Assembly (NCBI GenBank): GCA_024401555.1
Contig: JAKSKV010000003.1
Span: 1 to 64,000, forward strand
DNA from: Paludibacteraceae bacterium
GTDB lineage: Bacteria; Bacteroidota; Bacteroidia; Bacteroidales; Paludibacteraceae
Direction: 5' to 3'
Length of the DNA: 64,000 nucleotides
In this document: positions 41,249 to 64,000 of the stretch, piece after piece
Numbering within the stretch: position 1 is the stretch's first letter
Layout: every line of letters starts with the position of its first letter
Position numbers and translations under genes: made by a program
The notes under the pieces: model-generated
What the model was told of the DNA's origin: nothing
Database searches by the model: none
What the model saw: the letters and a program-made list of their open reading frames with translations, nothing else

Positions 41249-44200
41249 ATGGTAGCAAATCAGGTATGTAAATTGCTTAGATTAAGCCTTTTAACTATAT
41301 TGGTCACCCTCTCATCCATAGCAACAGTTTTTGCTGCGACAAAGAATGAGGACACCCCCAACCTTAGCTTCGAGAAAGGAACATTCGAAGGATGGAAAAG
41401 ATGGTACGGTTATTACGGACCGAAGGATTGGGTCAACAAACAACAATGCGAAACCGAGCCACTTTTCGTATCACTTAGCACCAACCAACCGGTAACAAAC
41501 GACACGGACGAGTGGGCGGAAAAGACAGAGTCAGTCATCAACAACGAGCGTGGAACATTCGAGGTGATGGCTAACCCAGGATTCGATATGAACTTGGCCT
41601 GCGATAACATCAAGATCGTTCCAATCGGATACGGACAATCCATGAAAATCGGAACCAGCAACTACATGGAAGGAACAGAGTTGCACTACGACGACGGACG
41701 AACAACATCTCGACAAATGAGAGCCTTGGCGGAAAAGAGCACTTACGAATACACGGTCACAGAAAACTCATCATTGTTGACTATCAACTATGCGGTCATC
41801 ATTCAGGAGGATAAGAATGTGATACACCTCGACGAAATGCCTCGTTTCGCTATCAATGTTTACACCAAAGAGGCTACACCTGAAACACTTTGTATTTCAA
41901 CTTCATACAAATCAAACGACCCAAGACTTCAATTGGCCAACGCACATGGTATTACAAGAAATCAGCATACACACATGGTGACTACAGACGAGTGTGAAGA
42001 GTGGGATTGTTTAAAGAGGGACCCGTCGAAATGCGCTGTATGGGAATACGACAAATGTGTAAAAACAGAAAGAAGAGAAGTTACAGACTATAACAACTGT
42101 CTGGAAAGAACATGCGTCGCAGGAAACCAGTGGTATTGCTGGCAATGGGGAAATTGCAAAAGATACGGAACGAAATGGGAAGATGTCTGTGTCAAAACTG
42201 AGAATGTCTGTACTGAATACGAATGTGCAGACTGGGGAGCATGTAAAAAATACAAGACGAAAGAGGTGACAGAATACACCTACACGCCTGACCCAGGTTC
42301 CAAGTGCGCCGCATCCCTTGTCTATCAACAATTGGCGGACGAAGAGTTCTATTACGATGGTTGGAAAACCATCTCTTACGATTTGAGAAAATACATCGGC
42401 AAGACCATCGTCGTCGAAGTGATCAACAGGGACTGTTTGGAACACTTGTACAGATGTCAATCAGCCGATACACACGCTTCCGGCAAAACATTCTATACCA
42501 ACTCTGGTACTAAAACCAACGAGAAATGTGGAGCCTTCAGTGCTTATTGTACAGAGTGTAATGCCACCAAGACCTTCGTAAAATCATGTACCGGAGGTCA
42601 CCACAGAACCTACGCCTACTTCAACGCCGCATCCCAAAGAATGGAGCTAAAAATCAAGAACTGCGGTAATGTGGGACAACCTGCCACCATCACAGCCCCA
42701 GAGGGATTCGATGTCTATGAATGGACCATGGATGGCAAAGCAGGTAAATTCAACACGGGCCTCAACTCTCCTAACATCTGTAACATTCCTTACACCGAAA
42801 TCAAGGATAATGTCAACTACTACTGCACCATGTACAACACGGCGGATCCAACTTGTACCAAGGTAGTGGAGACCTTCAGATTGTCAACCAACCCAATCGT
42901 AGCTGATTTTAATACCGATTTGGCTTGTTATAATGAGGTACATTTCGACAACTTGTCCAAAGTGAACGAGGTAACAATGGCGGATGGCACCAAGAAGAAA
43001 AACGACGAAATCACATATCAAGTATGGTCGTTCTACAACCAGGACGGCAAGTATGAGACAGGAGAAGAAAATCCCACCTACCTATTTAATTGCAAACAAG
43101 ACGGAGGATGCAAATATACCACCAAATTAGCGGTTATCACAAAAAACGACTGCCGTGTGGAAATCTCCAAACCAATTGAGGTCAACCAAAGACCTGAAGT
43201 GATCATCGAGGGTGACAAAACCGTATGTTACGGCGACTCCACCATGTTGATGCTAAACAGCGAATCATACCCAGCCAGTGCGTTGGCTCCAGGTGACTAT
43301 TACGAGTACGCTTGGGAAAACGAGGCAGGAGACGTATTGAAAAAAGGAAGAGGAGCAGATGGTAGATGGTTCTGGGCAAAACCATCCAACGGTACTGCAA
43401 GATATACCTTAAAAATATACCACAACGAAATCAGTGAACACGGAAACGAAGTAACCTGCGTATATTCCGGCACACATGACGTATCCGTGATCGAGAAGCC
43501 AGTGGCTAAAATTTCGATCGCGAACATGTACACACCAAACGGAGAAATCAAGCAAGTGGATCTATGTAAAAACACAACCACCATCTTGAGTGGATCTTCC
43601 ACAATGAAAAAAAGTATGTTTGGATGGTCCAAAGGAGAAGAATTTGATTTGGACGGCATCAACTTACAACCTGGAACAGATGATGGCACACTCATAGATA
43701 CAGCCGACATCATTCTCTCGGACACTACCAAATTTTACCTTTTTGTAGAGGCAGAGAACGGATGTTACCAAATCGACTCCATCCGTTTGAACGCGCTTCC
43801 ATTGCCAAAACTCGAAATCACAGCCGATGGCGAGTTAACCGCAAACGGCTATAAAGAGATCTGTTCGGGAGAGTCAACCGTATTGAAGGTAAGCGGAAAA
43901 GATGCGCAAGACAAAGCGATCAACAACTTCGTATGGACAACTCCTAACCAAGGTCAACCAACCTTGGAGGCCATCACCGCAACCCCTGCGGAAGAGAATG
44001 CCTACTTCAAGGATGGCAAATACATCTATAAATATGAGGTCAGCGGAAGTGACAAGTTGGGATGTACCGCCAAAGACTCTCTCCTTATATATATGTATAA
44101 GAACCCTACCCTCTCCTTCAACGAATTTCCTGGCGGTGTCTGCGCCGGAGAAGAATTCACACTGAAGGTAAGCGGTGTCGATTCCATTGTAGTGGACAAC

Positions 44201-47200
44201 AACCTTGAATCAGGATCGACAGCCTCTCCAGCTACGGCACCTATCGAGGCAAAATTGGTCGCTAACGAGGCGAAACGTTTCTACAGCGTCGAGGGTATCA
44301 AAATCAACGGCGACATCACTTGTAAATCCAGCAACGAATTCAGCATCAACGTGCTTGCCGCACCAAAGATCAGCATCATTGGTGTGACGACCATTTGTGA
44401 GGGAGGAAAACTCTCCCTTGCTGCCGACGGAGCGAACAGTTACAAGTGGTGGAAAGAGAGCGACAAAACAACTAAGAGTGGAGCTACTTACGAAGAAGAG
44501 ACTCCTGAAAACGGTTGGTACTATGTGGAAGGAACCCAAAGCGGAGCCAGCGCATGTAAATCAACAGATTCCGTGATGGTAAGCATCCACAAGGCACCTG
44601 CTTTGGAGATCGAATATGACCCAGCGGCTGTCTGTGTTGGTAACACCAAGGAGTTGTCTGCCAAGAAGGTGGATAGCAGCGATCCAACCAGCTTCCGCCA
44701 ATTCAACTGGAGCAACGGTTCTGTGGGAGAAAGAATCACAGTAGCCGTTTACAATGAGACCGCTGCGGGTGAGAAAATCACCGTGACAGGTTATGACGAG
44801 TACAACTGTCCATCGGAAGCGGAAGCTACCCTCTACACCAAACCTTACCCAACCATCACAGCAACTGCCTCCACCAACAACTGCGAGGATAGTGAGGCGA
44901 CCGTGACATTGAGTGGTGCTGACCAATACATCTGGCAAAAGAGCGTAATCTCAGAAAACAACAATCCAAACACACCATACGTGTGGACAATCGACAATGT
45001 CGGTAAAGCAGGAACCAAAGAGTACCTTATCACCGGATCATTGGACGGATGTTCAAAAGAAGAATATGTGCAACTCACCGTTTTAGAGGCTCCAGCATTA
45101 GCTATCACAGGTATCGAAGGTGGTATTTGCGAAGATGGGCAAGCGACTTTGACCGTGACTGGCGGTGTGACAGGCGGCACATACGAGTGGGAATACAGAG
45201 AGAGCGGACAATCAACTTGGAACACCCTTTCTGGCCAAAACGGCAACGAGATCACCGTATCTCCATCAGTTGACACTGAATACCGAGTTTCAGGTAAGGG
45301 ATCCAACGGATGTACAGGAACTTCATCCGCTGCCCTACTCCAGGTACACAAAATTCCGACAATCACCATCCAAAGAGATATTGCGGCAACCGACTCTTGC
45401 GAAAACTCCGTTGTAAAATTGAATGCGGAAGGCGCAGGTGAAAATGGAACCTACTCTTGGAGCATCACGGCGACAGATGGAGGAAAAACCATCGCCAATG
45501 CAACGGGTAAGAGCATCAGTTTCCCACTATCAGAAAACGCCAACATCTTAGTGGTGGGCTCCACAGAGAATATGTGTAGCAGCAATGCCACTAAAACCAT
45601 CACAGTTTACCCTTATCCAGTATTCTCCATGGAGAAGGATTTTGTCTGCGATGGCGATGTTATCTCCATGAAAGTCATCAACAAGAGCGACGCCGACACC
45701 ATCACTTGGATTCCTGAATCCTCTTGTTCAGGCATGACTGGTAAATATGAGGGATACCAAATGTATGAGTTCCAGGATAACCAACCAAAGAGCGGATTGT
45801 CCACCTATAAGATCAAAGCGATCGGAACTTCAGAAATGGGTTGTAAGACTGAAAAGACATTTAACTTCAGCGTAGTATCCAGACCAAACATCTACATCAC
45901 CGGTAAGATGGACTACTGCGAAGGTGAAAACATCGCATTAACAGCCAAGGGAGGTACATCCTACGAATGGGACAACGGCATAACAAAGAGTGCCGAGTTT
46001 GACTCTATCGCCAAGATCGGAAGAGAATCATTCACCGTCACAGGAACCGACAGCCGTGGTTGTTCAAACACCGCCACTTACAACATCAACATCAACCCTG
46101 CCCCAGCCATCTCTATTAAGAACAAAGAGAGCATGGAGAAGAGCATCTGTTACGGCGACGCCGTCACATTGGAGGCACAAGGAGGAAACAGCTACACTTG
46201 GAAACAGGTCATCGGCACCGAAAACAAGAACTACCCATGTTCATCATGCCAATCCATCAACCCTGTGATCCAAAGCGATGTCAAGTACATTGTTTCCGGA
46301 ATCAACGAGAAGAGTTGCGCAGGCAAGGATAGCGTAAGCTTCTCCGTAAGACAAAAACCTGAATTGGTATTCAAAAGCGAGAAGGATACCGTATGTAGCG
46401 GAACAGCGACACAAATCACCGTTTCCGACGTCAACCAAAACGTAGATGTTTGGGGCTTCGATTCCAATTTGAAGAACGTGACACACGACAACAAGTCACT
46501 CACCTTCAACACGGGAGAGATGACTGGTGCGAAAAACTATGTCATCACAGCCAGATCAGCTGCCGGATGTACGGCACAAGGCAACATCACCATTGAGGTA
46601 TATTCATCCGAAACAGTGGGCATCAACAACGGATTGGGTTATGTATGTAAGGGAGAACCCGCAACTTTGAGCGCTATCGGTAGCGATAACCTCACCTACA
46701 CTTGGTTGCCACAGGATGGTAAAACAGTGACATACATCGACGGTACCACATCGAACAGCAAAGAGATTAAGGTAAACATCAACGAAACCACCAGATTCCT
46801 TTTGCAAGCGGAGGACGCACACCACTGTAAAGTCAAGTCCGACATCAAGGGAATGGAGGTGAAAAACAAACCGGAGATCAATATCTTCCAAACACCTTCC
46901 ACAGCCATCTGTACGGGCCGCGACGTGAAGTTAACCGTTGCGGGCGCTACCACCAACGCAACACCAATGAGAAGCGACGGTTGGATTTGGTATGATGTTG
47001 ACATGAACGACTTGCACAACAAGAGCAACAACTATAGCATCGCCGAATTGAACGGAGCCGTTGGATTCTTCGTGCAAGGTACCGACCAAAACGGATGTCT
47101 ATCCGAGTTGAAATCACACACCATCCAAACAACAGGTGCTCCTGAATTCGAAATCAAAGTAGATAAAGAGGAGGTTTGTAAGAACAACAAGGTACAATTC

Positions 47201-50200
47201 AGCGTTGAAACGAACGACACCGACATCGTATCCTATATTTGGGAGAACGGCAAGGGAAGCGGCCTGACATTCGACACTACCCTCACCGTTGCGAAAGACT
47301 ACACCATCAAGGTGACACTTGACAATGGTAAATGTACCACCACCAAATCACGCACCGTTAAGGTGAACGATATTCCACGCGTGTCCATCACGAGTGTAAG
47401 CGGTAAGAACAGTATCTGCGAAGGTGACAGTATCGTACTTCAAGCCAACGTGACCAACGCTGATTTGAGTAAGATCACCTATATGTGGAACAACGCCCTT
47501 TGGAACAACAACAAGAGCGAAAGCGCTTACCAAGCGCAATACATCGCACCAAGCAACACCAACAGAATTGTCAGCCAAGTGGTTGTCAAGGAGGGTAATT
47601 GCGAATCTGTTCCAGCCACATTCAATGTAAACGTCAATGAGTTACCGAATGTGACAATCCTCGGAGAGAACGCAGTCTGCGCAGGTAATACCGTCGAATT
47701 GGTCGCAAGCGGAGTCGATACCAAGAATTACACTTGGGCTCAGGACGGTGAGAATGTCGGTGGAGGTAGCACCTATAAGCCAACCATCCATACCGATACG
47801 AAGTTCTCTTTGAAGGGAATCGACGCAAACGGATGTGTTGGAGAATTCACCAAGACGGTGGTCGCCAACCCTATTCCAGCCTTCTCCTTGGAGGCTCAAG
47901 ATGTCTGTGAAGGAACCAAGGGTTCAATCGAATTCAAGGATGCCGCTTTCGTGGATAAGTTCCATATCGAGAGAACCAATATGAATAAAACGGTCAATGC
48001 TCCTGCTTCTGTCTTTACAGACGAGCAACCTTTGAGAGAGAGTACCATCTACACCGTATATGCGACAAGCGATAAGGAATGTCCATCAGAAAAGCAACAT
48101 GTGACCATTGATGTGAAGGTCTCTCCAAACGTTCAAATAGAGAGCAACCCAATCAACCAACAAATCTGTTTGGGTCAAAGTGTCACACTAACCGCGACTG
48201 GCGCCACAGATTACACTTGGAAAGATTTGACACCAGTAGCAGGCGACAACAGCAAAGTGATCGTCACCCCTACCACTGCGGGAGAGCATACTTATACCGT
48301 AACAGGATATGCATACAATTGCCCAAGGGAGGCAAGCATCACCATCAAGGTTCACGAGTTGCCTACTATCAAGGATATCGCTACTGTAAAGGCCTGCGAG
48401 GGTGACATCGCCACCCTACATGCGGAAAAAGAGAGCGGTGAGGGAACCTTCCAATACATTTGGGACAACAGCAGCACCGTATTAACTGGAGAGTACATCT
48501 ATCCAGTCTTGAACAGCGACATGACCTTTACCGTTCACGCTGTGGATGGCAACAACTGTGAATCCCAACCGAAGACAGCAATGGCTCTCTTGGATTCTAA
48601 ACCAAAGGCCATATTCACAGAACCATCAGTCTGCGAGAACAAAGACGCTACGGTCACATTCTCCGACAAGAACGGTGATGCGATCAACAAACTTCAACTC
48701 TTGGGTAAGGATGCTGTGATGGGCAACGCCATCACCTTCGAGTCTAACACAGAGACGAAGACCTACAACTTAACCATCTACGGAAACAATGGATGTCAGT
48801 CCGACACGTTCGTTACCGTAAATGTGGAGAAGAACCCAGTCATCTCATTCATCCCTGCCACAGACGACTTTAGCAGTCAAATGTGTGTCGGCGATGAGTT
48901 CTCGTTGGAGGCTCATGCGGAAAACGCTGAGTTCAACTGGGTATGTAGTACCACAGAAGACTACGATGTGGGTGGATTGAATGGTAACAACATCATCGAT
49001 TTCTATCCATCAGAAAAAAGAGACAACAAGAACGATCCACACGTATTCGTAGTGACAGCCACAAGCCTTAATCCACTACATTGTACGAGCCAAATCGAAT
49101 ATAGGATCACCGTCAACGATACGACACCAAACAAGATCGAGGGAGATTACGCACAATGTATCGATGGTAATTTGACCTTGAAATCACAAAGCCAAAGTTT
49201 CATGAGCTACTCATGGACGGAAGAGGGTAACGCAGGATTCGTGATTTCAAGCAACAGATCCATCACCGAAAAGATCGATGGAGACAAACGTTACAAATTG
49301 GAGGCAACCGACGCCAATGGTTGTGTCTCCACCTCATATCACGAGGTGAAGGCCGTGCCAATGCCTTCATTCGAATTGGTGCCAGACAATGTCTGCGCAG
49401 GTGAGACTTCCACCACAAAAGTGAAGGATGTCGAGCCAAATGTAACCTATACTTGGGCAAACAAGGGAACTGGTAGCGAAATGACAGAGAAGTTGAGCGC
49501 GACATACACTTACTCCGTCACAGGTACCTACACTTATAGAAACGACAACAATGAGATCATCAAGCAATGTACAAGCGATCCAGTGAAGACAACGACTGTC
49601 GTCAACCCATTGCCAAACTTCTCTATCATCAGCAACAACACCCACAACAACACCGTTTGTGAGGGAGAAACAATCGAACTCTCCGTCTCTGGCGAATACA
49701 ACAGTTACGATTGGAGAGTTGGAAGCGTGGATGGCAGTACAGCCACCATTAAAAATGGTGACAACAAGAGACAAACCATCACCATCACGCCAAGTGGCAC
49801 AAACATTGACTACTTCGTCACTGTCAAAGACGCCAACGGTTGTGAAAACAACAAGAGCATCATCGTTTCATCCGTTAAGCAACCTAACCCAACATTCGAG
49901 TACAAGAATGCGGCTTGTCCTGGAAGCGTGGTAACCATCGAGGCCAACGCAGAGGGCGCCACCCAATATGAGTGGTGGGATAACGACAAGAGAACCATCG
50001 TAGGAAATGGTAAGAGTTTCAGTGTCGCTGTCGATGACATCACAGCCAACGACACCATCTTCTACGTAGTGGCAACCAATTTCATCGGATGTAAGAGTGA
50101 CGCTACCCCAGCGAAGGTCGTAAAGGCTCAAAAGCCGACATTCAGCGTCGAGTCGCCACAATATGTCTGCGCAGGCGACAAACCGACCATCAAATTGCAC

Positions 50201-53200: not shown

Positions 53201-56200
53201 ATGCCTATCATCACCTTCAATGGCAACAACTCTATTTGCGAGGGAGAATCCACAGAGATCTCCATCCTCAACAGCAACGATAAAGTAAGCGCATCTTACT
53301 ACTGGCAAGAGATCGATCCAAGTAAATCTGTGGCAAAACAGACTTTGAGTCCGAAATCAACCACTACCTACAACATCAAGGTAATGGCAGAGGGCAACTG
53401 TGAGATCGATACCTTCGTAACCATCACCGTTAAACCCAAACCAGTGGTTACCATCAACGGTATGAGAGACGGTGACGCGCAAGTCTGCGCGGGATCCGCG
53501 TTTGAATTGGGTGCCAATGTTTCCAATATCACGGGAACATTCAAATATTGTTGGGACAGCGAGTGCCTGAACCAAAATAGCGAGGATATTCAATTCAACG
53601 TTGGTAAAGACACGGTATTGATCAAACAGGTAAGCAAAGTAAGCAGCACTACTTACCAAGTAATCGCGGAAGACGAGCTTACTAAGTGTCAAGACATCAC
53701 CACCTTCACCATCTATTCATTGCCTAATCCTGACGTGAAGATCGCGGCAGTGGATCCTGTCTGCGAGGGTACGGACGCAAACATCGAAATCATCGGTGCG
53801 AACAAGGATTACGAATATGTCTGGAAACATGGTAAGACAGGCGCAAGCATCACCGAGAAGATCGATGCAGAGCAGAAGTTCGTTGTTACCTGCACCAACC
53901 CTACCAATGGATGTTCTTCCCAAGATTCAATTGTGGTAAAGACCAAACCTTATCCAACCATTCAATTGAGTGAGAAAGATATCACAAAGTGTAAGGATGC
54001 TTCATTTAATGTGAAGGCTACCATTTCCAACTATCAAGCCAACAGCGACACCACCTTCTCTTGGAAGAAGGAGAATGACGCTAACTTCATCCAAATCGGC
54101 AGCGAACTCAACGATAAGATCACAGAGGGTAGCACCTATATCGTAACAGTGGAGATGGACGAGTGCCAAAGCACAGAGAAGGTCACCACCAACTACTACC
54201 CTACACCATCCGTCTCTATTGACGGTGACAAGAGTGTCTGCGACAACGCGGAGGCGACGATGACCGTCAACATCAACGGTACCGACGCCACATACGATGT
54301 GCAATGGATTTACGAAAAGAGTTCCGCAAGCGACTCTTGGAACGATTTGGAGATAAGCGGTTCCGACAACAAAACCGCCACTGCCAAGAATTTGGCCTAC
54401 AGTGACAAGGGTTACACCTTCATCGCAAGCGCTACTGGCGCCAACGGATGTCCAGGATACTCCGATCCATTCACAATCAACACATGGAACAACCCTATTG
54501 TCTCCATTACCGCAAAAGATTATGATTGTAGGAATGCGGAGGTTCAAGTAAGCGCCTCCCTAAACAACGGTAACGGAAGTTACACTTGGGAGATCAATGG
54601 CAAAGAGGAGGCCGGTGCGATAGTTCTATTCAAATTGGAGGAGAACACCACCTTAAAGGTAGCCGGCCGCGATGATAACGGTTGTGTCGGAAGCGACACC
54701 AAGGAGATCAAAGTCTTGGAGAACCCAACCATCACAATCGACGGCAAACGCTCATTCTGCGAAAACGATGAAGCTGGAACAGAGTTGACCTTCAAGGGTG
54801 CAACCTTCTACGATTTCGGAAACGGAATGAAGAACGCATCACAAAACGAGGCGGTCAAGAATGTATTCAAACCTACCAAGACACAAGACTACACCATCCA
54901 ATATTCGTTGAAATACGAAAATGGCGTCACTTGTACAGGTTCTGAAAATATCACCATAGAGGTTGCGCCATTGCCTGATGTCCGCATCAACGGAGAATTG
55001 GCCGGAACAGCCTCTATCTGCGAAGGCTCATCCATCGTCTTGAACGCCACATCCGGATTGAAAGATTACAATTGGGTAGTCAGCCCATTCAACGGAGAGA
55101 GCAGTTACAGCGACGACAAAGAGGCTTTGACCTTGAAAGTAGGCGCCAACACCCAACCGATCGATGTTACCCTCTCCGCATCTACTACCGATACGGAGTG
55201 CCGCAACATAGCCACCTACACCATCAACGTCAACAGCAAACCTGAATTCACGATTTCCGCGAAAGAGGCTGTCTGCGAGAACAGCAGCGTAGAGTTGACC
55301 GTTGCTTCCAAGCCAGGAGCGGAGGCAATCTCCTCACTTGACTGGGGTGCCTTGAACTCTTCCCGCAATGCCAAGAGCATTACCGTGGTCACCACACAAC
55401 CGGCTGGCCAACAAGAGAACTACAAGGTAACGGCTACCTCTATCGCCGGATGTAGCAATACGGATAGCGTACAGGTGAACATCATGGCAGCGCCAAGCAT
55501 GACGCTTACTGCAAAAGACATTTGCGAAAATGACGCGGCTTCGATCCAATTCAAGAGCAAGGATACCAAATCGTTCACCGTCGAGGGCAAAGCCATCACC
55601 TTGGGCGGCGATAGCGTATGGCACGAGACTGGCGTCATCAGACAAGCCGGTATCCATACCATCCACGTAAAGGCTATCAACGATTACTGCGAGACAGAGG
55701 AGCAGGTCAACTTCAACGTGATCAACTTGCCTAACGTGAAGATTACCGCACCAGCGTTCCTTTGTAAGAACAACACCGAGGCTACCTTGGTGGCTTCGGA
55801 TGCGGACAGATACCAATGGAGAGTCTTTGACGAGGCAACATCCAAATTTGTGGATATGCCTGGCGAGACCAATAAGACATTGACCATCACGCCTCCTAAC
55901 GCGAGCGACGTAACCCTCCGATACGCATTGGAGGTAACTGTAGGCGAGTGTCAAAACAAGGACTCCGTCAATATCCAAGTATTCAACACACCAGAGTTCA
56001 CCATGAACAAGGAGTTGATCATCGTCTGCGAAGGAACCGACAAAGTGTTGGAGTTCTCCGATGGTAGCAATGTGGGAACCTGGACTTGGAGTACCGGTGC
56101 GCAAAACACACCAAGCATCACATTGACCAACATTACGGAGGAGAAGCAAATCAATGTGGTTGCGGAGACCCAATACGGCTGTAAAGCGACCAAGAGCTTT

Positions 56201-59200
56201 ATCGTCAGTCCAAAGGCTTACCCTACCTTCAGAAAGGTCGGACCAGACTTCGTATGTAAGGGTTCAGAGGCGAAGATCAACATCTACACCTCAGACGAAT
56301 CCGACATTCCTTTGGCCGATTATGTATGGAGAGGCAACACCAAACCAAGCAACTTGGATTGGGGAACCACACTCACCATTCGTGAGGTGATCAACGCCAA
56401 GACTGATTTTGAGATCTCGTTGGAGAACAATTACCAGGATTCAAGAGATACCACTATGGACGGTATCAGAAACCCTGATTTCATCTCCAATAAGTTAACT
56501 TGCCAAAGCAAGGAGATCGTCACTGTGGATGTATGGGATTTGCCAGTCATCTCTGTCAATGGAGGTAAGGCGGATACCACGATCTGCGACAACGCTAACG
56601 TTGTGTTGAGCGCCACCTCTTCGGACATCAAGCCAACCGGTTGGCACTGGAAGAGCAACAACAGCGACATCACGACAGAGAGCGCGACAGCCAGCAACAC
56701 CACCACAACAGTGGCTCCGCACAACGATACCAAGTACATCGTCATTGCGGAGAACAACAACGGCTGTATCGACTCGACCGACTTTAGCATCTATGTGAAC
56801 CCATTGCCAACCTTCACATTGAATACACCACTCTCCGTCTGCGACGGATCCGACACCATCGCGACGGTTCAAGCGGGCAAGGAGTTGTTGTACCAATGGG
56901 AGACCGGCGAAGGATTCACCACAGCCAAGACATTCAACATCTACAACATCACCGCCGACAAGACCTTGTCAGTGATCGCGAAGGACGAGAACGGATGTGA
57001 GTCTAATCCTGTCGAGAAGACTATCCAATGGATGCCAAATCCGAAGATCGAGTTCGTAGATCCAATCTACAACGTATGTTACGGCAGAGATGTCACCTTG
57101 AAGGTAACAGACAACACCGCTGGTGGAGAGCAAAACACCTACGTATGGATGAATGACGCGAACAACACGGGTAAAGAGTTCACCAAGAAGAACCTTACCG
57201 AATTCACTCAATTCACCGTAGAGGGTAAGAGAGGCGTCTGCGTCCAAACGCAAACTTGGAACGTGGACATCTGGAGTTTGCCTAACGTGAAGATCGATAT
57301 GTCACCAAGCACTGCTGTTTGTTGGGATGAGTCTGTCACCCTCAACGGTAACGGTGCGAATAAATACGCTTGGAAAGAGAACGACGGCGAGGTTTCATTC
57401 AACGTAGCCGACTACAATTCCAATAAAGACACCACCTTCACTCACCTTACTTCTCAAACAATGAAGTATTTGTGGGGAATCGATGCGAATGGATGCGCGA
57501 ACAAAGACAGCATCAGCATCAACATCAACAAGTTGCCAGTATTCACAATCTCAGGTGATACCATCGCTTGCGAGGGTGCGGAGGTAACGATGACCGCACA
57601 AAAAGATGCTTCGACTGTAGGTGGATTGAATTACAGATGGAGCAACAAGAAGGACCAAACATTAGGACAAAACGATGAGTTGAGAATCACCATCGCCCGC
57701 GACACCCTCTTGTATGTCACAGCAACCAACGCAGAGGGTTGTGAGAAGTCTGACTCCATTAGGGTATTTATGAAGAAGTATCCTAATATCCGTTCAGTCA
57801 AGGATACTCAGAATGTATGTAAGAACGACGAGGCGGTTCTTACGGTCGCAACAGATATGGCAGGTGTCGTATTCGACTGGAAAGACGCGCGCACCGGCAC
57901 CCAAATCACAGAGGGTCTCAGCGACAACAACCGTACTTTGACACAAAGCATCTCGTCTTACAAGGAGTTTACGGCAAGAGCGATCAAGTCCTACCCTATC
58001 TTCAACAACGAGGAGCGTCAATGTATCAGCGACACCACCTTCAAGATCACTCCTTGGGAGTTGCCTATCATTCGTCTGAAGGGACAAGACGAAGTCTGCG
58101 CAGGTGAGAGCGTCACACTCAACGCAGAGGGAGGCGTAGCCGGTAAATACCACTGGAGCTACGAATACCAAGAGGGTAACAACACTGTTCGTGTGGATAC
58201 CACCGCTTTGGATCCATCCGCAGTGACCGATGAACTCCAACCTGTACCAAACAGAGACTTGGTAACCTACCGAGTACAAGGTCAGGACGACAAGACTTGT
58301 AAGAACAACGCTGAATTCCAAGTCAGAAGGAACATCCTTCCTGACTTCAGAATCATCGCTGACGAGCAGGTCTGTGAGAACACGACAACCACGGTGAGGG
58401 TTTCCGCATCCATCTCATACAACTACAAGTGGGATGAGAATGGATATAGAACCAATATCTCCCACGAGTACTTCATCAGCGGAGATACCACCATCACCAT
58501 CCAAGCGATCGATAGCAAGACCTTGTGTGAGAAGTCTCTTACTCACAAGATTTATAGCAAGGAGCATCCAAGCTTGATGATCGAAGCGGATGACTACACT
58601 TGTTTGAATTCGCCTACCACATTCAAGACTCAAAACACCGACGCACAGACCACCTTTAGCTGGTATGAGGGATTGGATAAGAGTCTGAACCCAATGAAGG
58701 TAGGCTATGAGGCAACCACCGCTCCTTTGAAGGCGGAGAGCTGGTTCCACGTGGAGGCCGCTAAAAAGTACGAGAAGACGACTTGTTACAGCGACACCAC
58801 ATTCCGTGTCCAGATCCTCCAATTGCCGAACATCAAAATCGAGGAAGGCAACAACATCGCGGTCTGCAAGACCAAGCCTGTCACCCTCCACGCTTCGAAC
58901 GGAGATCCTGACAAATACGCTTGGGATACGGAGAACACCGCCCTTGTCAGCGCTACGCCTCAATATCAATTCACACCGACTACACAAGGCGAGAAACACA
59001 CCTTGTTAGGAGGAAAGACCTACACTTACGACAAGGATTATGTCTGCTACAAGACAGATGAGACCACCATCACCTTGAACGAGTTGCCGGTATTCGCCGT
59101 AGATGGTCCGAAGGATGCTTGTGAAAACACCAAGATATCCCTTTCTGGATCCAGCAAGGATAACTTGTCTTACGAGTGGACCGACACCAAGGGCAACAGA

Positions 59201-62200
59201 ATCTCAAGTCTGAAGAGCCACACATTCACCATCACGAAGGATACGACAGTGAGACTGATCGCCTTCAACGCCTTCGGTTGCGACGATAGCCGTGACTACG
59301 ACGTGAAGATGCACCACTACCCTGTCATCGTAAAGGATACGGTCAGCACCAATGTATGTAAGAACGACAAGGCACTGCTCCGCATCCACCATGAGGATGA
59401 TGCGGACCTTAAGCAAGTGACTTACCAATGGAACGATTGGGGCGAGGAGGGAGCAATCCTGAACAGCGACCACATCACCCCTACCGTAAGCAAACAGACT
59501 CAATACGCGGTAACCGTATCCAACGTTGTGGACGAGGCCAACAACATCGTCTGCGCGACGACCAACCGCTATACGGTCAACACTTGGGATCTTCCTACCA
59601 TCATCGTAGAGAACATCTCCGTTTGTCCTGACAGTAGCGCGACATTGAGCGTAAGCAGTCCATCCATCATCGAGAAATTCTCTTGGGTAGGCACTGACGT
59701 AGAGGGAACCACCTACAAGACGCCAAGCATCAGCAAGGATACCATCTTCAAAGTGACCGGTATCGACAACAACCACTGTGTCGGAGAGGGAACCGCAATC
59801 GTATCACTTTACGATTTGCCACAATTCAACTTGTCGGATAATGGTCCTGTCTGCCGCGGAAGTCAAATCACGGTAGAGGCCGACAACATCGGTTTGGAGT
59901 ATGACTGGAACGACTTGAAGGGATTCCGTACCGACCGAACCTTCTCCAAAGAGTTGAACGACAAGGAGACCATCTCCGTTTGGGGTAGAAGTTCATACGG
60001 ATGTATGCGTCAAAAGAGCATAGAGGTGAATGTCAAGGACATCCCTGTATTGACCTTGAAGATGACCAATTCAAATGGCCAGGAGAGCAACTACGTTTGT
60101 CACGGCGATGCGATGACATTGACCGCAAGCGGTGCGAACGGAGGATATACTTGGGCCAAGGATGGTAGCGAATTGACGGATCAGAAGGGATCTAACCAAA
60201 TTGTCCTCAACAACCTCACCGTACCAGTGAACGTCACCTTGAAGGGCGAGTCCAACCAGTGTGAGTCCGTCATCGACACAATAATCAACATCTGGTCGCT
60301 TCCTACTATCCAAATCGAAGCGCTTACCGCCGATGTCTGCATCGGAAAGAAGGATTCATTGTACGCGAAGGGCGGTTTGACCGGTCTCTACCAATGGAGC
60401 GGTCCGGTTATCAACGATGCTAACGTGAAGTGGAACGGTTCTTCTGTGGATGATTTGAACAAAGACAACATCGAGATCCTTTTGGATTCCAAGACCAACA
60501 CATCGTTCATGGCGAAGTATCTTGTCAAAGGTACCGACGAGAACGGATGTAAGGGAACTGGTTCCATCGACATCAGAGTCAACAACTTACCTACCGTGAA
60601 AATCGAGGGTGACCTTCTCGTCTGCCACGGTGCGGAGGCTAATTTGATGGCGACCGGTAACGCGGAGTCCTTCATTTGGAATGTCGAAGGCGAAGAGTCA
60701 TACTTATCGACCGTGAACCCTATCATCACCAAGGATAACACCAAGATCACCTTGGCTGGTACGGATAACAACGGTTGTGAGGCCGAGACGGAGGCTTACA
60801 TAAACACCAAACCTAATCCAATCATCCTCATCAGCACCAACACGGGTGTGGATACCGTATGTAAGAACGATAGGGTTAGAATTGACTTGAAGGCTGTCGA
60901 TAACAAGGGCAACGATATGAGCCAAGACGCTGTTTGGGAGTGGCAAAACGAGAACACCAACAGCTTCTGGGAGGAGCAAATCGCCAACAAGAAGAATTAC
61001 AACGTAAGAGTCGGTGTCAACGAATGTTACCACGACACAACATTCAGCATCAACACTTGGCCATTGCCAATCTTCGAGATCAAGAGCGAAGACGCTATTT
61101 GTATCAACGGATCAGTCACCTTGACCGCAGAGGACGACAAGAACGGCAACGGACCGCTCTCTTATGTTTGGTCTAAGACCACCCAAGGAGGAAGCGGTAC
61201 CACAACCGTCATTTCAGGCAACAGCAGCAACATCTTGGAGGATACACCAACCGAGACCATGCGCTACGCCGCTGTCGGAACCGACAAGCACAACTGTAAG
61301 TCAACCGCTTACCAAATGATCCGTGTCGATACTTTGCCTACCGACATCCGAATCATCACATCGCCTTCTGATTCGATCTGTTCGGGCGAAAACGTAACGA
61401 TGAAGGTAACCGGTTCGGCAATCGACTACACTTGGAGCATCGGCGACGAATTGCTCACCAGCGGTGAGGAGTTGACCTACAAGATCCAAAACAACGACAT
61501 CACCTTCACCATCAAGGGTAGAAACGCCAATGGTTGTGAATGGACGATCCACAAGAAGATCTACAAGAAGGATCTTCCAGTCTTAAGAGTGGAAGAGAAG
61601 CCAGATTATGTATGTTACAATACAGAGGCCGTTATCAGGGTTTCTGGCGCAGATTCCTACTTGTGGGACAACAATGGCAAAGAGGATAAGACATCTGAAA
61701 TTCTCACCATGGACCGCACATTCAAAGTGAAGGGTTACAAGAACGGATGTGAGTCCAGTCCAATCGACATCTTCGTTCCTGTGAAGAGCCTTCCTACCAT
61801 CCTGATTACCGCCAATAAGACGGAGAACGAGATCTGTTACAACGACAAAATCAAGTTGATCGGAAACGGTGGTAAGAGCGGTTCTTACGTATGGGAGAAT
61901 GGCGAATACACAACCGACGACATCACCGTGTCACCAAAGGAGACCAAGAGCTACGTCTTGACCGGTAAGGATGAGTTCGGTTGCGAAAACAGCAACGAGT
62001 ACAAGGTAATCGTACACGAGTTGCCTAAGCTCCACATCGAGGCGGCATTCGACAGAATCTGTCAGGCCGACATCGATACACTTTGGGTAGTCAACGATAA
62101 TCCTAAGGATATCCACGGTGCTCAAGTATTGTTCAAATCATACTCTTGGGGTGATGGAGAGACCGTGGAGAAGATTACCTCCAGCGTGAAGAACAACAAA

Positions 62201-64000
62201 CGTTTCGACGTGATCGTCCAAGACATCTACGGATGCGTAGGATCGGCCGAGAAGGATATCGAGATCAAGCCATATCCTAAATTGAAGATCAACGCACCTG
62301 AATACATCTGTTTGGGCGATGACAACACAGTATCCGTATCAGGCGCCAACACCTACGTTTGGAACGACGGATCGACGAAGAGCGAATTCACCAACACATT
62401 GCGCCGCGACACCACCTACTCCGTAACCGGAGATTTAGAGGGATGTAAGTCCGACACCACCTTCAGCGTAGGCGTTAGACAGTTGCCTAATGTTTGGATC
62501 TCTTCCAATGTGGATGCCATCTGTTTGAAGGAGAGCATTACCATGAAGGCGAACGGCGCAAGCACCTATGTTTGGAATGTTCGTGACGTCAACACCAACA
62601 GAATGGATGGTGAGACAGCGACAGCGATCCCTACCAAGGCAGACCAAACTTACCGCTATAGCATCATCGGTACCGATGAGTTCGGTTGTAAGAATGTCGA
62701 TACCTTCGACGTGAAGGTTTATCCATTGCCAACCATCGACATCCACGGAGAGACCGAGATCTGTCAAGGCGATATGGATACCTTGTGGGTAACCGGTGAC
62801 GCCACCCGTTACACATGGACCAACACGGGAGAGCAGACCGACACAATCTTCCCTATCGTAGACACCAAGACAACCTATAATGTCACCGCGGAGTCTAACA
62901 TGGGATGTATCGCGAAGAACAAGATTACCGTAAGCGTCAAGCCTTACCCTGTCATCAACATCAACGCACCTAAGTATGTCTGCTTCGGCGACAAGGCCAT
63001 TTTGGAGGCATCCGGCGCCAACAGTTACATCTGGCAAAACGACGAGACCTTGACGGGCAAGCGATTGACAGAGACACCTGAAAAGGGCAAGTCATACAGT
63101 GTCAAAGGAACCACCAACGGATGTACCAGCGAGGCCAACGTCTATGTGGATGTGAACCCACTTCCATACGTATGGATCACCGGTGAGGAGAGCCTCTGCT
63201 ACGGAGACAACACCACATTGTCCGCTAATGGTGCCACCACTTATTTGTGGAGCACAAGACAATTGGGCGAACATATCACCGTAACGCCAACAGACACCTT
63301 CAAGACTACGGCCTACTCCGTAATCGGTACCGACGCGTTCGGATGTAAAAACACCGATACATTCAACATCACCGTTCATCCTCTCCCTAATGTGAGAATC
63401 CTCGGCGACAACGCTACATGTAACGGAGATGCGACCCACTTGGAGGCTATCGGTGCGAAGGAGTATATTTGGAACACATCCGAGCAAGGTGCCCACATCT
63501 ACCCTATCATCACGGCGAACAAGACATTCACCGTTGAGGGTACGGACGAATATGGATGTAAGAACACATTCGACAAGACCGTTACCCGCAAGTACTACCC
63601 AGTATTGAGTTACACCGCACCATCAGCCGTCTGCGACGGTAACGAGGTAACCATCTCCGTAACAGGTGCCTCTCGATATACCTGGAGCGGTAGCGAATCA
63701 TTGGTGGCAAAGGGAGGAACCATGAAGGATACCATCCGCGAGCGAACCATCTACACCGTATCCGGTGAAGAGAATGGTTGTACGACCACAAGGGATATCG
63801 TCATCGACAAATACGAGTTGCCTACCATCTGGGTGAATGGTCCAGCCATCGTCTGCCAAGGCAGTCAGTTGAAGTTGACAGCCACAGGAGGTAGCACCTA
63901 CACATGGACTTGGGGTAACAACATCTACCGCAACGCTTCGATGAGCGACAAGCCAGAGAATACAACCACTTACAAGGTTGTCGGAATCGACTCGCACAAG
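41249..64000 (+). CDS. Giant multi-domain Ig/PKD-like repeat surface protein (at least 7,584 residues, 3' end outside window)
   Basis: One open frame from ATG at 41249 to the window edge with no stop: 22,752 bp, 7,584 codons. Signal peptide with LLRLSLLTILVTLSSIATVFA|A. Residues ~35-245 and ~355-500 form an N-terminal domain homologous to that of the 1,541-residue protein at 2040-6665; shared marks are GTFEGW, SYDLRKYIGKTIVVEVINRDCL and ITAPEGFDVYEW. It is split here by a 12-Cys insert (residues 249-332). From ~residue 650 on there are tandem ~83-residue domains with consensus VC-x-G-x4-L-x-A-x-GA-x2-Y-x-W, then T-x2-Y-x-V-x-G-x-D-x-NGC, then LP. These fit secreted PKD/Ig-like adhesin domains, probably disulfide-bonded. 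T9SS export is inferred from the paralogue; the sorting domain is not visible. SprB-like adhesins are the closest known type. Confidence 0.93.
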   Translation, partial: MVANQVCKLLRLSLLTILVTLSSIATVFAATKNEDTPNLSFEKGTFEGWKRWYGYYGPKDWVNKQQCETEPLFVSLSTNQPVTNDTDEWAEKTESVINNERGTFEVMANPGFDMNLACDNIKIVPIGYGQSMKIGTSNYMEGTELHYDDGRTTSRQMRALAEKSTYEYTVTENSSLLTINYAVIIQEDKNVIHLDEMPRFAINVYTKEATPETLCISTSYKSNDPRLQLANAHGITRNQHTHMVTTDECEEWDCLKRDPSKCAVWEYDKCVKTERREVTDYNNCLERTCVAGNQWYCWQWGNCKRYGTKWEDVCVKTENVCTEYECADWGACKKYKTKEVTEYTYTPDPGSKCAASLVYQQLADEEFYYDGWKTISYDLRKYIGKTIVVEVINRDCLEHLYRCQSADTHASGKTFYTNSGTKTNEKCGAFSAYCTECNATKTFVKSCTGGHHRTYAYFNAASQRMELKIKNCGNVGQPATITAPEGFDVYEWTMDGKAGKFNTGLNSPNICNIPYTEIKDNVNYYCTMYNTADPTCTKVVETFRLSTNPIVADFNTDLACYNEVHFDNLSKVNEVTMADGTKKKNDEITYQVWSFYNQDGKYETGEENPTYLFNCKQDGGCKYTTKLAVITKNDCRVEISKPIEVNQRPEVIIEGDKTVCYGDSTMLMLNSESYPASALAPGDYYEYAWENEAGDVLKKGRGADGRWFWAKPSNGTARYTLKIYHNEISEHGNEVTCVYSGTHDVSVIEKPVAKISIANMYTPNGEIKQVDLCKNTTTILSGSSTMKKSMFGWSKGEEFDLDGINLQPGTDDGTLIDTADIILSDTTKFYLFVEAENGCYQIDSIRLNALPLPKLEITADGELTANGYKEICSGESTVLKVSGKDAQDKAINNFVWTTPNQGQPTLEAITATPAEENAYFKDGKYIYKYEVSGSDKLGCTAKDSLLIYMYKNPTLSFNEFPGGVCAGEEFTLKVSGVDSIVVDNNLESGSTASPATAPIEAKLVANEAKRFYSVEGIKINGDITCKSSNEFSINVLAAPKISIIGVTTICEGGKLSLAADGANSYKWWKESDKTTKSGATYEEETPENGWYYVEGTQSGASACKSTDSVMVSIHKAPALEIEYDPAAVCVGNTKELSAKKVDSSDPTSFRQFNWSNGSVGERITVAVYNETAAGEKITVTGYDEYNCPSEAEATLYTKPYPTITATASTNNCEDSEATVTLSGADQYIWQKSVISENNNPNTPYVWTIDNVGKAGTKEYLITGSLDGCSKEEYVQLTVLEAPALAITGIEGGICEDGQATLTVTGGVTGGTYEWEYRESGQSTWNTLSGQNGNEITVSPSVDTEYRVSGKGSNGCTGTSSAALLQVHKIPTITIQRDIAATDSCENSVVKLNAEGAGENGTYSWSITATDGGKTIANATGKSISFPLSENANILVVGSTENMCSSNATKTITVYPYPVFSMEKDFVCDGDVISMKVINKSDADTITWIPESSCSGMTGKYEGYQMYEFQDNQPKSGLSTYKIKAIGTSEMGCKTEKTFNFSVVSRPNIYITGKMDYCEGENIALTAKGGTSYEWDNGITKSAEFDSIAKIGRESFTVTGTDSRGCSNTATYNININPAPAISIKNKESMEKSICYGDAVTLEAQGGNSYTWKQVIGTENKNYPCSSCQSINPVIQSDVKYIVSGINEKSCAGKDSVSFSVRQKPELVFKSEKDTVCSGTATQITVSDVNQNVDVWGFDSNLKNVTHDNKSLTFNTGEMTGAKNYVITARSAAGCTAQGNITIEVYSSETVGINNGLGYVCKGEPATLSAIGSDNLTYTWLPQDGKTVTYIDGTTSNSKEIKVNINETTRFLLQAEDAHHCKVKSDIKGMEVKNKPEINIFQTPSTAICTGRDVKLTVAGATTNATPMRSDGWIWYDVDMNDLHNKSNNYSIAELNGAVGFFVQGTDQNGCLSELKSHTIQTTGAPEFEIKVDKEEVCKNNKVQFSVETNDTDIVSYIWENGKGSGLTFDTTLTVAKDYTIKVTLDNGKCTTTKSRTVKVNDIPRVSITSVSGKNSICEGDSIVLQANVTNADLSKITYMWNNALWNNNKSESAYQAQYIAPSNTNRIVSQVVVKEGNCESVPATFNVNVNELPNVTILGENAVCAGNTVELVASGVDTKNYTWAQDGENVGGGSTYKPTIHTDTKFSLKGIDANGCVGEFTKTVVANPIPAFSLEAQDVCEGTKGSIEFKDAAFVDKFHIERTNMNKTVNAPASVFTDEQPLRESTIYTVYATSDKECPSEKQHVTIDVKVSPNVQIESNPINQQICLGQSVTLTATGATDYTWKDLTPVAGDNSKVIVTPTTAGEHTYTVTGYAYNCPREASITIKVHELPTIKDIATVKACEGDIATLHAEKESGEGTFQYIWDNSSTVLTGEYIYPVLNSDMTFTVHAVDGNNCESQPKTAMALLDSKPKAIFTEPSVCENKDATVTFSDKNGDAINKLQLLGKDAVMGNAITFESNTETKTYNLTIYGNNGCQSDTFVTVNVEKNPVISFIPATDDFSSQMCVGDEFSLEAHAENAEFNWVCSTTEDYDVGGLNGNNIIDFYPSEKRDNKNDPHVFVVTATSLNPLHCTSQIEYRITVNDTTPNKIEGDYAQCIDGNLTLKSQSQSFMSYSWTEEGNAGFVISSNRSITEKIDGDKRYKLEATDANGCVSTSYHEVKAVPMPSFELVPDNVCAGETSTTKVKDVEPNVTYTWANKGTGSEMTEKLSATYTYSVTGTYTYRNDNNEIIKQCTSDPVKTTTVVNPLPNFSIISNNTHNNTVCEGETIELSVSGEYNSYDWRVGSVDGSTATIKNGDNKRQTITITPSGTNIDYFVTVKDANGCENNKSIIVSSVKQPNPTFEYKNAACPGSVVTIEANAEGATQYEWWDNDKRTIVGNGKSFSVAVDDITANDTIFYVVATNFIGCKSDATPAKVVKAQKPTFSVESPQYVCAGDKPTIKLHGAYYYRWDSEGNYSGINDGSKSDEDRGAIFKETESLTSDKVYTITAWNDEKTCQDTKEITIPVKQKPIISIKDENGNQTSASICINNSITLNAVTGDTHNPSYQWSSDNYTWGANDRNNVALTATNESVSQYKVSLKVTDGDTKCNNTTDFYVNINPRPIVQIIPDENPVCDGSDMVLRANSVFKSYDWSTANADGTKKGATISSNNDLTIPGLSEAQKIRLEVEDENGCRNSSTLDVYTKNFPTVQAEAKTICYNDYPSITITESDADTYMWPDGTTTISTDKPTWTSNAKLTGDKTFTISVVKDGCRKDNIQVFAGVFKPTELSFKVNGENTNGRPAMACKDNELTIAVTNSGLSQINWVNEAKSEATITDKITASKNYKVTALDANKCPTEGTQTVNVYQTTTVSISGEEEVCQGGNIPFKATGSESYSWSISPKDAGLITCNTTDSSEITVTKIKKPFKILASGVDQNGCASNPSAAKSIKVKEAPMIQITGIPTNGVICSGTAINMKVTSNGDYTKWTAGAGIISDSEVQAQLTTSKGSKRVETYTIEAKLGNCPADSIVKINVNPRPSLVISTAGAICSGDSTTIAVKEVYGADVHYTWRKDIHNFRTYPSGDTIKVGKGGKYYVSAQMNDADTRCASDEVEININEVAQPTISLAQSGTLCKGNNITLTASGNGQNPSWYYLSNGKASEMSIADGVNEIQPVITQDTSFIAVASITQSFTNTTLVCKNSDTIRLKMNPDPTFHFDAPTVCYDKPMTIKVVSDEPTNQYEWSWNGGGQQEPGLSQTINNMQGSYIFKVKATSKDGCETTKDTIVDIYALPIIKGISGENIICEEDQNKTLTVECDDPTAITDYVWSANNASDFSVKEGNKAQITMTPLIDNKEKQITYNVEVTDIHNCVSSKSYDVDVKPTPILQFVSEENCPNEPTNVVASTKNNVEDVTFTWYESNEGEKGNIVSVGDKLEKEIKQKTDFIVVATSPFDCEKQEEISVDVRPMPIITFNGNNSICEGESTEISILNSNDKVSASYYWQEIDPSKSVAKQTLSPKSTTTYNIKVMAEGNCEIDTFVTITVKPKPVVTINGMRDGDAQVCAGSAFELGANVSNITGTFKYCWDSECLNQNSEDIQFNVGKDTVLIKQVSKVSSTTYQVIAEDELTKCQDITTFTIYSLPNPDVKIAAVDPVCEGTDANIEIIGANKDYEYVWKHGKTGASITEKIDAEQKFVVTCTNPTNGCSSQDSIVVKTKPYPTIQLSEKDITKCKDASFNVKATISNYQANSDTTFSWKKENDANFIQIGSELNDKITEGSTYIVTVEMDECQSTEKVTTNYYPTPSVSIDGDKSVCDNAEATMTVNINGTDATYDVQWIYEKSSASDSWNDLEISGSDNKTATAKNLAYSDKGYTFIASATGANGCPGYSDPFTINTWNNPIVSITAKDYDCRNAEVQVSASLNNGNGSYTWEINGKEEAGAIVLFKLEENTTLKVAGRDDNGCVGSDTKEIKVLENPTITIDGKRSFCENDEAGTELTFKGATFYDFGNGMKNASQNEAVKNVFKPTKTQDYTIQYSLKYENGVTCTGSENITIEVAPLPDVRINGELAGTASICEGSSIVLNATSGLKDYNWVVSPFNGESSYSDDKEALTLKVGANTQPIDVTLSASTTDTECRNIATYTINVNSKPEFTISAKEAVCENSSVELTVASKPGAEAISSLDWGALNSSRNAKSITVVTTQPAGQQENYKVTATSIAGCSNTDSVQVNIMAAPSMTLTAKDICENDAASIQFKSKDTKSFTVEGKAITLGGDSVWHETGVIRQAGIHTIHVKAINDYCETEEQVNFNVINLPNVKITAPAFLCKNNTEATLVASDADRYQWRVFDEATSKFVDMPGETNKTLTITPPNASDVTLRYALEVTVGECQNKDSVNIQVFNTPEFTMNKELIIVCEGTDKVLEFSDGSNVGTWTWSTGAQNTPSITLTNITEEKQINVVAETQYGCKATKSFIVSPKAYPTFRKVGPDFVCKGSEAKINIYTSDESDIPLADYVWRGNTKPSNLDWGTTLTIREVINAKTDFEISLENNYQDSRDTTMDGIRNPDFISNKLTCQSKEIVTVDVWDLPVISVNGGKADTTICDNANVVLSATSSDIKPTGWHWKSNNSDITTESATASNTTTTVAPHNDTKYIVIAENNNGCIDSTDFSIYVNPLPTFTLNTPLSVCDGSDTIATVQAGKELLYQWETGEGFTTAKTFNIYNITADKTLSVIAKDENGCESNPVEKTIQWMPNPKIEFVDPIYNVCYGRDVTLKVTDNTAGGEQNTYVWMNDANNTGKEFTKKNLTEFTQFTVEGKRGVCVQTQTWNVDIWSLPNVKIDMSPSTAVCWDESVTLNGNGANKYAWKENDGEVSFNVADYNSNKDTTFTHLTSQTMKYLWGIDANGCANKDSISININKLPVFTISGDTIACEGAEVTMTAQKDASTVGGLNYRWSNKKDQTLGQNDELRITIARDTLLYVTATNAEGCEKSDSIRVFMKKYPNIRSVKDTQNVCKNDEAVLTVATDMAGVVFDWKDARTGTQITEGLSDNNRTLTQSISSYKEFTARAIKSYPIFNNEERQCISDTTFKITPWELPIIRLKGQDEVCAGESVTLNAEGGVAGKYHWSYEYQEGNNTVRVDTTALDPSAVTDELQPVPNRDLVTYRVQGQDDKTCKNNAEFQVRRNILPDFRIIADEQVCENTTTTVRVSASISYNYKWDENGYRTNISHEYFISGDTTITIQAIDSKTLCEKSLTHKIYSKEHPSLMIEADDYTCLNSPTTFKTQNTDAQTTFSWYEGLDKSLNPMKVGYEATTAPLKAESWFHVEAAKKYEKTTCYSDTTFRVQILQLPNIKIEEGNNIAVCKTKPVTLHASNGDPDKYAWDTENTALVSATPQYQFTPTTQGEKHTLLGGKTYTYDKDYVCYKTDETTITLNELPVFAVDGPKDACENTKISLSGSSKDNLSYEWTDTKGNRISSLKSHTFTITKDTTVRLIAFNAFGCDDSRDYDVKMHHYPVIVKDTVSTNVCKNDKALLRIHHEDDADLKQVTYQWNDWGEEGAILNSDHITPTVSKQTQYAVTVSNVVDEANNIVCATTNRYTVNTWDLPTIIVENISVCPDSSATLSVSSPSIIEKFSWVGTDVEGTTYKTPSISKDTIFKVTGIDNNHCVGEGTAIVSLYDLPQFNLSDNGPVCRGSQITVEADNIGLEYDWNDLKGFRTDRTFSKELNDKETISVWGRSSYGCMRQKSIEVNVKDIPVLTLKMTNSNGQESNYVCHGDAMTLTASGANGGYTWAKDGSELTDQKGSNQIVLNNLTVPVNVTLKGESNQCESVIDTIINIWSLPTIQIEALTADVCIGKKDSLYAKGGLTGLYQWSGPVINDANVKWNGSSVDDLNKDNIEILLDSKTNTSFMAKYLVKGTDENGCKGTGSIDIRVNNLPTVKIEGDLLVCHGAEANLMATGNAESFIWNVEGEESYLSTVNPIITKDNTKITLAGTDNNGCEAETEAYINTKPNPIILISTNTGVDTVCKNDRVRIDLKAVDNKGNDMSQDAVWEWQNENTNSFWEEQIANKKNYNVRVGVNECYHDTTFSINTWPLPIFEIKSEDAICINGSVTLTAEDDKNGNGPLSYVWSKTTQGGSGTTTVISGNSSNILEDTPTETMRYAAVGTDKHNCKSTAYQMIRVDTLPTDIRIITSPSDSICSGENVTMKVTGSAIDYTWSIGDELLTSGEELTYKIQNNDITFTIKGRNANGCEWTIHKKIYKKDLPVLRVEEKPDYVCYNTEAVIRVSGADSYLWDNNGKEDKTSEILTMDRTFKVKGYKNGCESSPIDIFVPVKSLPTILITANKTENEICYNDKIKLIGNGGKSGSYVWENGEYTTDDITVSPKETKSYVLTGKDEFGCENSNEYKVIVHELPKLHIEAAFDRICQADIDTLWVVNDNPKDIHGAQVLFKSYSWGDGETVEKITSSVKNNKRFDVIVQDIYGCVGSAEKDIEIKPYPKLKINAPEYICLGDDNTVSVSGANTYVWNDGSTKSEFTNTLRRDTTYSVTGDLEGCKSDTTFSVGVRQLPNVWISSNVDAICLKESITMKANGASTYVWNVRDVNTNRMDGETATAIPTKADQTYRYSIIGTDEFGCKNVDTFDVKVYPLPTIDIHGETEICQGDMDTLWVTGDATRYTWTNTGEQTDTIFPIVDTKTTYNVTAESNMGCIAKNKITVSVKPYPVININAPKYVCFGDKAILEASGANSYIWQNDETLTGKRLTETPEKGKSYSVKGTTNGCTSEANVYVDVNPLPYVWITGEESLCYGDNTTLSANGATTYLWSTRQLGEHITVTPTDTFKTTAYSVIGTDAFGCKNTDTFNITVHPLPNVRILGDNATCNGDATHLEAIGAKEYIWNTSEQGAHIYPIITANKTFTVEGTDEYGCKNTFDKTVTRKYYPVLSYTAPSAVCDGNEVTISVTGASRYTWSGSESLVAKGGTMKDTIRERTIYTVSGEENGCTTTRDIVIDKYELPTIWVNGPAIVCQGSQLKLTATGGSTYTWTWGNNIYRNASMSDKPENTTTYKVVGIDSHK
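41993..42244 (+). other. Twelve-cysteine insert in the giant protein (residues 249-332)
   Basis: Twelve cysteines in 84 residues, in three loosely repeated blocks of the form W-x2/4-C-x-K followed by Lys/Thr/Tyr-rich turns (AVWEYDKCVKTER, WQWGNCKRYGTKW, ADWGACKKYKTKE). It is absent from the paralogue at 2040-6665. The Trp-x2-Cys pattern recalls thrombospondin type-1 folds, but I cannot assign it. Confidence 0.8.
43195..64000 (+). repeat. Array of ~80 tandem Ig/PKD-like protein domains
   Basis: Repeats are seen at the protein level. Domain starts of the kind (V/I)C-x-G recur about every 250 bp; thirty counted between 43.2 and 50.7 kb average ~83 codons, which implies about 80 in the window. 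Copies are strongly diverged in DNA sequence, so this is an old array rather than a recent tandem duplication. Confidence 0.85.

Follow-up and report, generated by a model that had tools for sequence, protein, structure and literature searches.

An exceptionally long open reading frame in the genome of a Paludibacteraceae bacterium with close relatives in the rumen raises the question of what kind of protein it encodes, how this product would leave the cell, and what determines its length. The frame (ORF A) starts with the ATG at position 41249 on the forward strand of the window, that is, the 64,000-nucleotide stretch of DNA analysed here, and stays open up to the window edge at 64000, with 7,584 codons lying inside. 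The window comprises positions 1-64000 of a contig that is 129,795 bp long and belongs to a metagenome-assembled genome (MAG) of 3.52 Mb (159 contigs, 99.8% complete). In this contig the frame closes with a stop codon at position 66211, yielding a protein of 8,320 aa, with no N across the stretches read. A preliminary description of the window had compared this product with SprB of Flavobacterium johnsoniae, which has ~6,500 residues, and had placed it among the largest proteins of the Bacteroidota. The comparison with SprB holds for the complete protein, but the ranking is to be qualified by three giants of a sister genus, which reach 10,468-10,533 aa.

A tandem pair of giant reading frames

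ORF A can be divided into a signal-peptide-like start of ~29 aa (41249-41335, forward strand; recognised by eye), a cysteine-rich N-terminal head (approximately aa 30-647; 41336-43189, forward strand), and an array of 91 Ig-like domains of the PF19081 (Ig_7) type with a three-domain superperiod (43190-64000, forward strand, delineated by HMM, the last domains lying past the window edge). A total of 31 cysteines, those of the signal peptide included, precede the first domain of the array, and the head displays no match to Pfam, NCBIfam or PDB sequences. A phage origin was considered and rejected, the N-terminal 800 aa of A being without a match in 50,697 phage records.

A second giant frame, ORF B, is located outside the window on the same strand, 261 bases downstream of A (contig 66473-91171; 8,232 aa), and is itself followed by a MutS2-like ORF (by eye). 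The two proteins are colinear and can be aligned over almost their full length at 27% identity (8,455 columns). The tandem giant pair, its 91 domains and their three-domain cassettes, all absent from the preliminary description, are the most unusual features of this locus. On the other side of A, genes recognised by eye include a ParA-like ATPase and a small ORF just upstream of A (window 39719-40819, reverse strand), which together resemble a mobile-element partition pair, a leucine-rich-repeat (BspA-like) protein (window 38565-39713, forward strand) and a Vsr-like endonuclease (window 13158-13685, reverse strand).

Relatives were found by searching the first 800 aa of A in the same genome and in 40 related ones. 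Both giants are intact in 12 of the 16 genomes of the genus, the present one included. The remaining four are 88-95% complete: G003 contains partial ORFs only, its A piece running to a contig end; G014 contains a 640-aa fragment close to a contig end; and G008 and G011 contain only short relatives. Across the twelve genomes, A spans 7,875-8,449 aa (CV 2.4%) and B 7,792-8,400 aa (CV 2.7%), with A the longer of the two in every genome and the two lengths correlated (r 0.86, n = 12; 0.89 in a clade of seven; phylogeny not corrected for). The identity between A and B (27-36%), compared with that among A orthologues (31-92%) and among B orthologues (32-92%), indicates that the duplication predates the divergence of the genomes sampled. 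The two genes are neighbours in nine genomes and lie on separate contigs in the other three (G002, G004 and G013), so that adjacency would not be required for a pairing of their products.

Because full-length A is found in 12 of the 16 genus genomes, the giant open frame of the preliminary description is real, being neither a product of chance nor a lone assembly error. Moreover, purifying selection on both genes is indicated by dN/dS ratios of 0.13-0.18 for A and B in two close pairs, with values below 0.35 in every 800-codon window. Considering that the gene is repetitive and the data derive from MAGs, collapsed or chimeric repeats might be suspected; however, such an artefact is exceedingly improbable, given that twelve genomes agree, that purifying selection acts throughout, and that the domains are too diverged to collapse (the best non-self domain score in A of this genome averages 98, against 450 for self).

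Export machinery and the putative carrier

The preliminary description had anticipated a cell-surface protein exported by the type IX secretion system (T9SS) and had looked to the true C-terminus for a type B sorting domain. Such a domain was found: the last ~90 aa of A constitute a type B T9SS sorting domain (CTD) matching TIGR04131 with 46 bits (cut-off 35) and PF13585 with 57.0 bits (cut-off 27), and the CTD of B is of the same type (58 and 58.5 bits against the same respective cut-offs). Both proteins also possess signal-peptide-like starts, as judged by eye. With regard to the machinery, the genome encodes SprA (2359 bits over 2,319 positions) as well as GldK and PorP above cut-off, and GldL/M/N-like ORFs recognised by eye adjoin. 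Based on the type B CTD and this set of machinery genes, it is very likely that A is a surface protein exported by the T9SS.

The expectation of a porP/sprF gene downstream of A did not hold. Among the downstream ORFs read, no such gene directly follows either A or B; the next genes are B and the MutS2-like ORF, respectively. The likeliest carrier gene lies instead ~39 kb from A (1048-2028, reverse strand). It encodes a PorP/SprF-family protein of 326 aa with a C-tail ending in YPCPVVYW, and it follows a short paralogue of 1,568 aa (2040-6746, reverse strand), in which a related head precedes 13 Ig/PKD-like domains and a CTD of the same class as those of A and B. The short paralogue is found on the same contig as A in 8 of the 12 genomes, head to head and 12.6-41.8 kb apart.

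Several observations bear on the assignment of carriers. A PorP-sized ORF follows the short relative in 16 of the 18 cases fetched, the other two being located at a contig end, and the C-tail motif C-P-x-x-x-W is present in all 18 carriers beside short paralogues (two copies from the present genome included). The CTDs of A, B and the two short paralogues of this genome share 48-64% mutual identity, and at most 45% identity with 13 other CTDs compared. We infer that the gene at 1048-2028 provides the carrier for the short paralogue. Its use by A and B as well is a fair, though less certain, reading, for which a precedent exists in three orphan type B substrates that share one carrier (PMC12618676). 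Carriers are probably shared among substrates more generally, since the genome contains 28 CHU_C matches (26 above cut-off) versus 14 PorP/SprF genes. In addition, an identical stretch covering the last 42 aa (ending WCVTKHFCR) was observed in three PorP genes of this genome, G000 (C1:411-1403, L078; C94:77159-78145, L081; C80:27374-28402, L083), and the CTDs of the substrates encoded at C24:13057-19785 and C80:28462-35460 are 100% identical; either gene conversion or an assembly duplicate may account for these identities.

A constant domain number and its three-domain cassettes

For domain counting, an HMM was grown from one domain of A, and its last round was applied to 24 giants (12 A and 12 B). 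In all 24, 91-93 Ig-like domains were detected, a spread attributable to weak N-terminal domains. When counted from the C-terminus in a single MAFFT alignment, on which this register rests, 91 domains share alignment places in 23 of the 24 giants with no gain or loss seen, and the only missing call in the 24th (G013_B) is its weak last domain. The length differences within A and B arise from domain size, loop size and the head, with mean domain spacing ranging from 78.9 to 84.6 aa. Exactly two cysteines occur in 81 of the 91 domains of A and 85 of the 91 domains of B in the present genome, and each such domain probably contains one disulfide.

Recent expansion of the repeats was rejected as an origin of the array, domain i of A in this genome being closest to domain i of G006_A in 57 of 91 cases. 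The corresponding figure for B and G006_B is 62 of 91. Between A and B of this genome, domain i is closest to domain i in 21 of 91 cases and within the top three in 42, with a mean diagonal score of 76 and an off-diagonal score of 38.

The number of repeats in bacterial repeat proteins is usually expected to change freely. A type B protein of 3,840 aa from this genome, likewise built on an Ig array (G000 C24:30123-41645, L089; relatives L128-L132), served as a control. It has matches in 8 of the 16 genus genomes, the present one included (ORFs of 3,381-4,573 aa), although the matches in G004 (E 1e-23) and G008 (E 3e-21) are weak and may not be orthologues. In the six of these eight proteins that were read, the domain number varies between 25 and 37 (33, 37, 37, 37, 32 and 25). 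Between G006 and G012, for example, the control differs by 32 versus 25 domains, and the domains missed by the count (one in G006, two in G012) are too few to close this difference, whereas the giants of the two genomes are 91% identical and both have 91 domains.

The unchanged domain number in both paralogues suggests that filament reach is under selection. Given that A and B retain 91 domains down to 27% identity while the other Ig array drifts, filament length itself looks like a selected trait. An alternative explanation would be that A and B are ordinary repeat adhesins of unselected length, their domain number being held constant by common descent alone. Consistent with this, the twelve genomes all come from a single genus, and the three sister-genus giants likewise agree in number. 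This explanation nevertheless appears improbable, because the control array varies in number across these genomes, G006 and G012 included, and because A and B have each kept 91 domains independently at 27-36% identity.

The 91-domain array is composed of three-domain cassettes (30x3+1). Domain-to-domain scores peak at all lags divisible by three (mean 54.8 versus 42.2 over lags 1-30; 8 of the 24 giants), and the phase statistic reaches 10.8; 2,000 permutations gave a mean of 0 (SD 0.4) and did not exceed 1.9. The closest phase is the expected one for 83 of the 91 domains. This periodicity is most distinct towards the C-terminus, and the first 15 domains show it only weakly (41 versus 36).

The same lag-3 peak is found in the sister-genus giants, all three of which have 121 domains when counted from the domain after a PKD-like domain. 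With respect to their 30 extra domains, the last 46 domains align at an offset of 30 and the rest are ambiguous. Counted in the same way, the short paralogue on the contig of A has 13 domains. Among 20 short relatives (two from the present genome included), 18 total 15 domains by a first HMM; of the others, one has 14 (15 by a second HMM) and G123 has 24, or 22 after the like subtraction. The numbers 13, 22, 91 and 121 are all of the form 3n+1. This form was not shown for the other sister-genus arrays (42, 42, 39, 31 and 30 domains by HMM, unanchored) or for the control family (25-37 domains). Two further giants, G092 (8,090 aa) and G020 (6,028 aa), exhibit a weaker three-domain signal with incomplete domain calls. 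The sister genus also contains a tandem of proteins of ~4,330 and 3,180-3,194 aa (L104-L107; G018 C39, G091 C154), which have similar N-terminal starts and C-terminal ends unlike type B CTDs, as judged by eye.

These numbers invite a more specific and rather unlikely proposal, in which A and B would together make up a hetero-filament of measured length, one strand each, and thereby a bacterial analogue of the titin ruler. Stalk length would be fixed by a whole number of three-domain cassettes (4, 7, 30 or 40) and one additional domain, strands with equal cassette numbers would lock in register along ~0.35-0.4 um, and between lineages reach would shift by cassette steps only. The open-access papers listed in a literature search included none on giant proteins of Paludibacteraceae or on a fixed domain number in such arrays, and the fixed, cassette-built length of the tandem pair is the new part of the present analysis.

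Proposed mode of action and known systems

We favour the explanation, which we consider moderately probable, that A and B are giant T9SS type B surface filaments forming a length-locked pair; they would function in the manner of SprB and possibly be moved on a gliding track. Their identity as T9SS type B surface filaments is well supported, and SprB-like movement serves as a working model. Each giant would leave through SprA and then be anchored to the outer membrane by its CTD, which would sit on a PorP/SprF-family carrier. The product of the gene at 1048-2028 is the best candidate for this role, since its own substrate has the CTD class of A and B. An Ig domain measures ~4 nm, so the stalk of 91 domains would project ~0.35-0.4 um and present the cysteine-rich head; the 13-domain paralogue would present a related head at short range. 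Selection on reach would find its simplest explanation in a side-by-side arrangement of A and B that requires the two to remain in register.

Movement would depend on a connection between carrier and track. SprF has been reported to be bonded via its C-x-C tail to Cys343 of GldK, and PorG to the matching GldK/PorK cysteine (Cys356 in P. gingivalis) (PMC12635249). In the present genome, Cys347 of GldK aligns with PorK Cys356. The head-linked carriers have a single tail cysteine, and no C-x-C tail was detected in the last 60 aa of the 14 PorPs of this genome. The invariant carrier-tail cysteine could bond the conserved GldK cysteine, in which case the filaments may be dragged along the GldJ/K/N track in the same way as SprB. 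Apart from GldK, the genome encodes a GldJ-like protein with a full-length match of 390 bits, under the curated cut-off of 458. GldH lies above its cut-off, and GldB lies above the Pfam cut-off and below that of NCBIfam; these two proteins do not mark gliding, since both also match in Bacteroides ihuae.

In the family as a whole, a GldJ match at E 1e-60 is present in 109 of 120 genomes and exceeds the curated cut-off in none of the 120. GldJ-like proteins fall into two classes, with full-length matches (44 of the 120 genomes) or with matches ending at approximately model position 383-438. The full-length class occurs in 24 of the 26 genomes with a strong head match (E <=2e-30) versus 20 of the 94 others (Fisher p 3e-11, relatedness not corrected).

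Alternatively, A and B may be static long-reach adhesins that are exported and anchored, remain unmoved, and attach the bacterium to protozoa, to other cells nearby or to particles of feed. This alternative is plausible, though somewhat short of probable. The GldJ-like protein falling under its cut-off and the lack of a C-x-C tail among the PorPs of this genome are consistent with it, and some type B substrates appear to be statically anchored with a PorE homologue (PMC12618676). Against it, inspection by eye places no OmpA/PorE-like gene in an operon with the head-linked carriers, whose tail cysteine is kept in 18 of 18 cases.

The likeness of this model in overall features to the SprB/SprF system of F. 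johnsoniae comprises a giant repeat protein, a type B CTD, a PorP/SprF-family carrier, and GldJ/K-type proteins in the genome. The sprF gene is located directly downstream of that for SprB (PMC12618676), whereas the present locus has two giants with no adjacent carrier, a single tail cysteine in the putative carrier, and a fixed 91-domain array. With its single tail cysteine, this carrier family could be used to probe the carrier-GldK disulfide described recently.

Judged by sequence, the nearest solved relative of the A repeats is GhpA of Aureispira sp. CCB-QB1, a T9SS-secreted protein whose heptameric hook binds prey flagella (PMC11205867). In PDB searches, it was the only match at the limits used for both the last 448 aa of A (E 1.6e-35) and aa 3001-7584 (E 6e-51); the best match of the first 3,000 aa was to another Ig-like protein (E 0.0073). 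The likeness is limited to homologous Ig-like repeats and the precedent of a T9SS-secreted long surface fibre. GhpA differs in its chain of 5,898 aa, in the use of its hook with a type VI secretion system in predation, and in that no head homology was seen. By analogy, copies of A and/or B could wind into a thick multi-strand filament catching motile cells or protists, an arrangement whose lateral packing would suit the fixed domain number and the three-domain period. We regard this as doubtful, because the homology is one of repeats, neither the head nor the N-terminal 3,000 aa of A having a strong PDB match, and because a protein that is not a giant, the short paralogue, also matches GhpA (E 4e-34). 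PF17541 (TssC), sought as a marker of a type VI secretion system, had no match in the genome, but none in the control genomes either. The locus also directs attention to appendages of a SprB-like or grappling-hook-like kind among Bacteroidales of the rumen.

A giant Ig array at the cell surface is also known from Mobiluncus mulieris, whose adhesin of 7,651 aa contains 51 Ig-like domains (PMC10619420). This protein differs from A and B in belonging to another phylum and in its ester, isopeptide and thioester cross-links, and it is not known to be one of a pair. The A-band super-repeats of titin, a eukaryotic protein from inside muscle to which no relation is claimed, are alike in one respect, namely the arrangement of Ig-type domains in higher-order repeats of a set number (PMC7427331). 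In bacteria, the A/B system provides a natural case for asking why a cell would measure its surface filaments.
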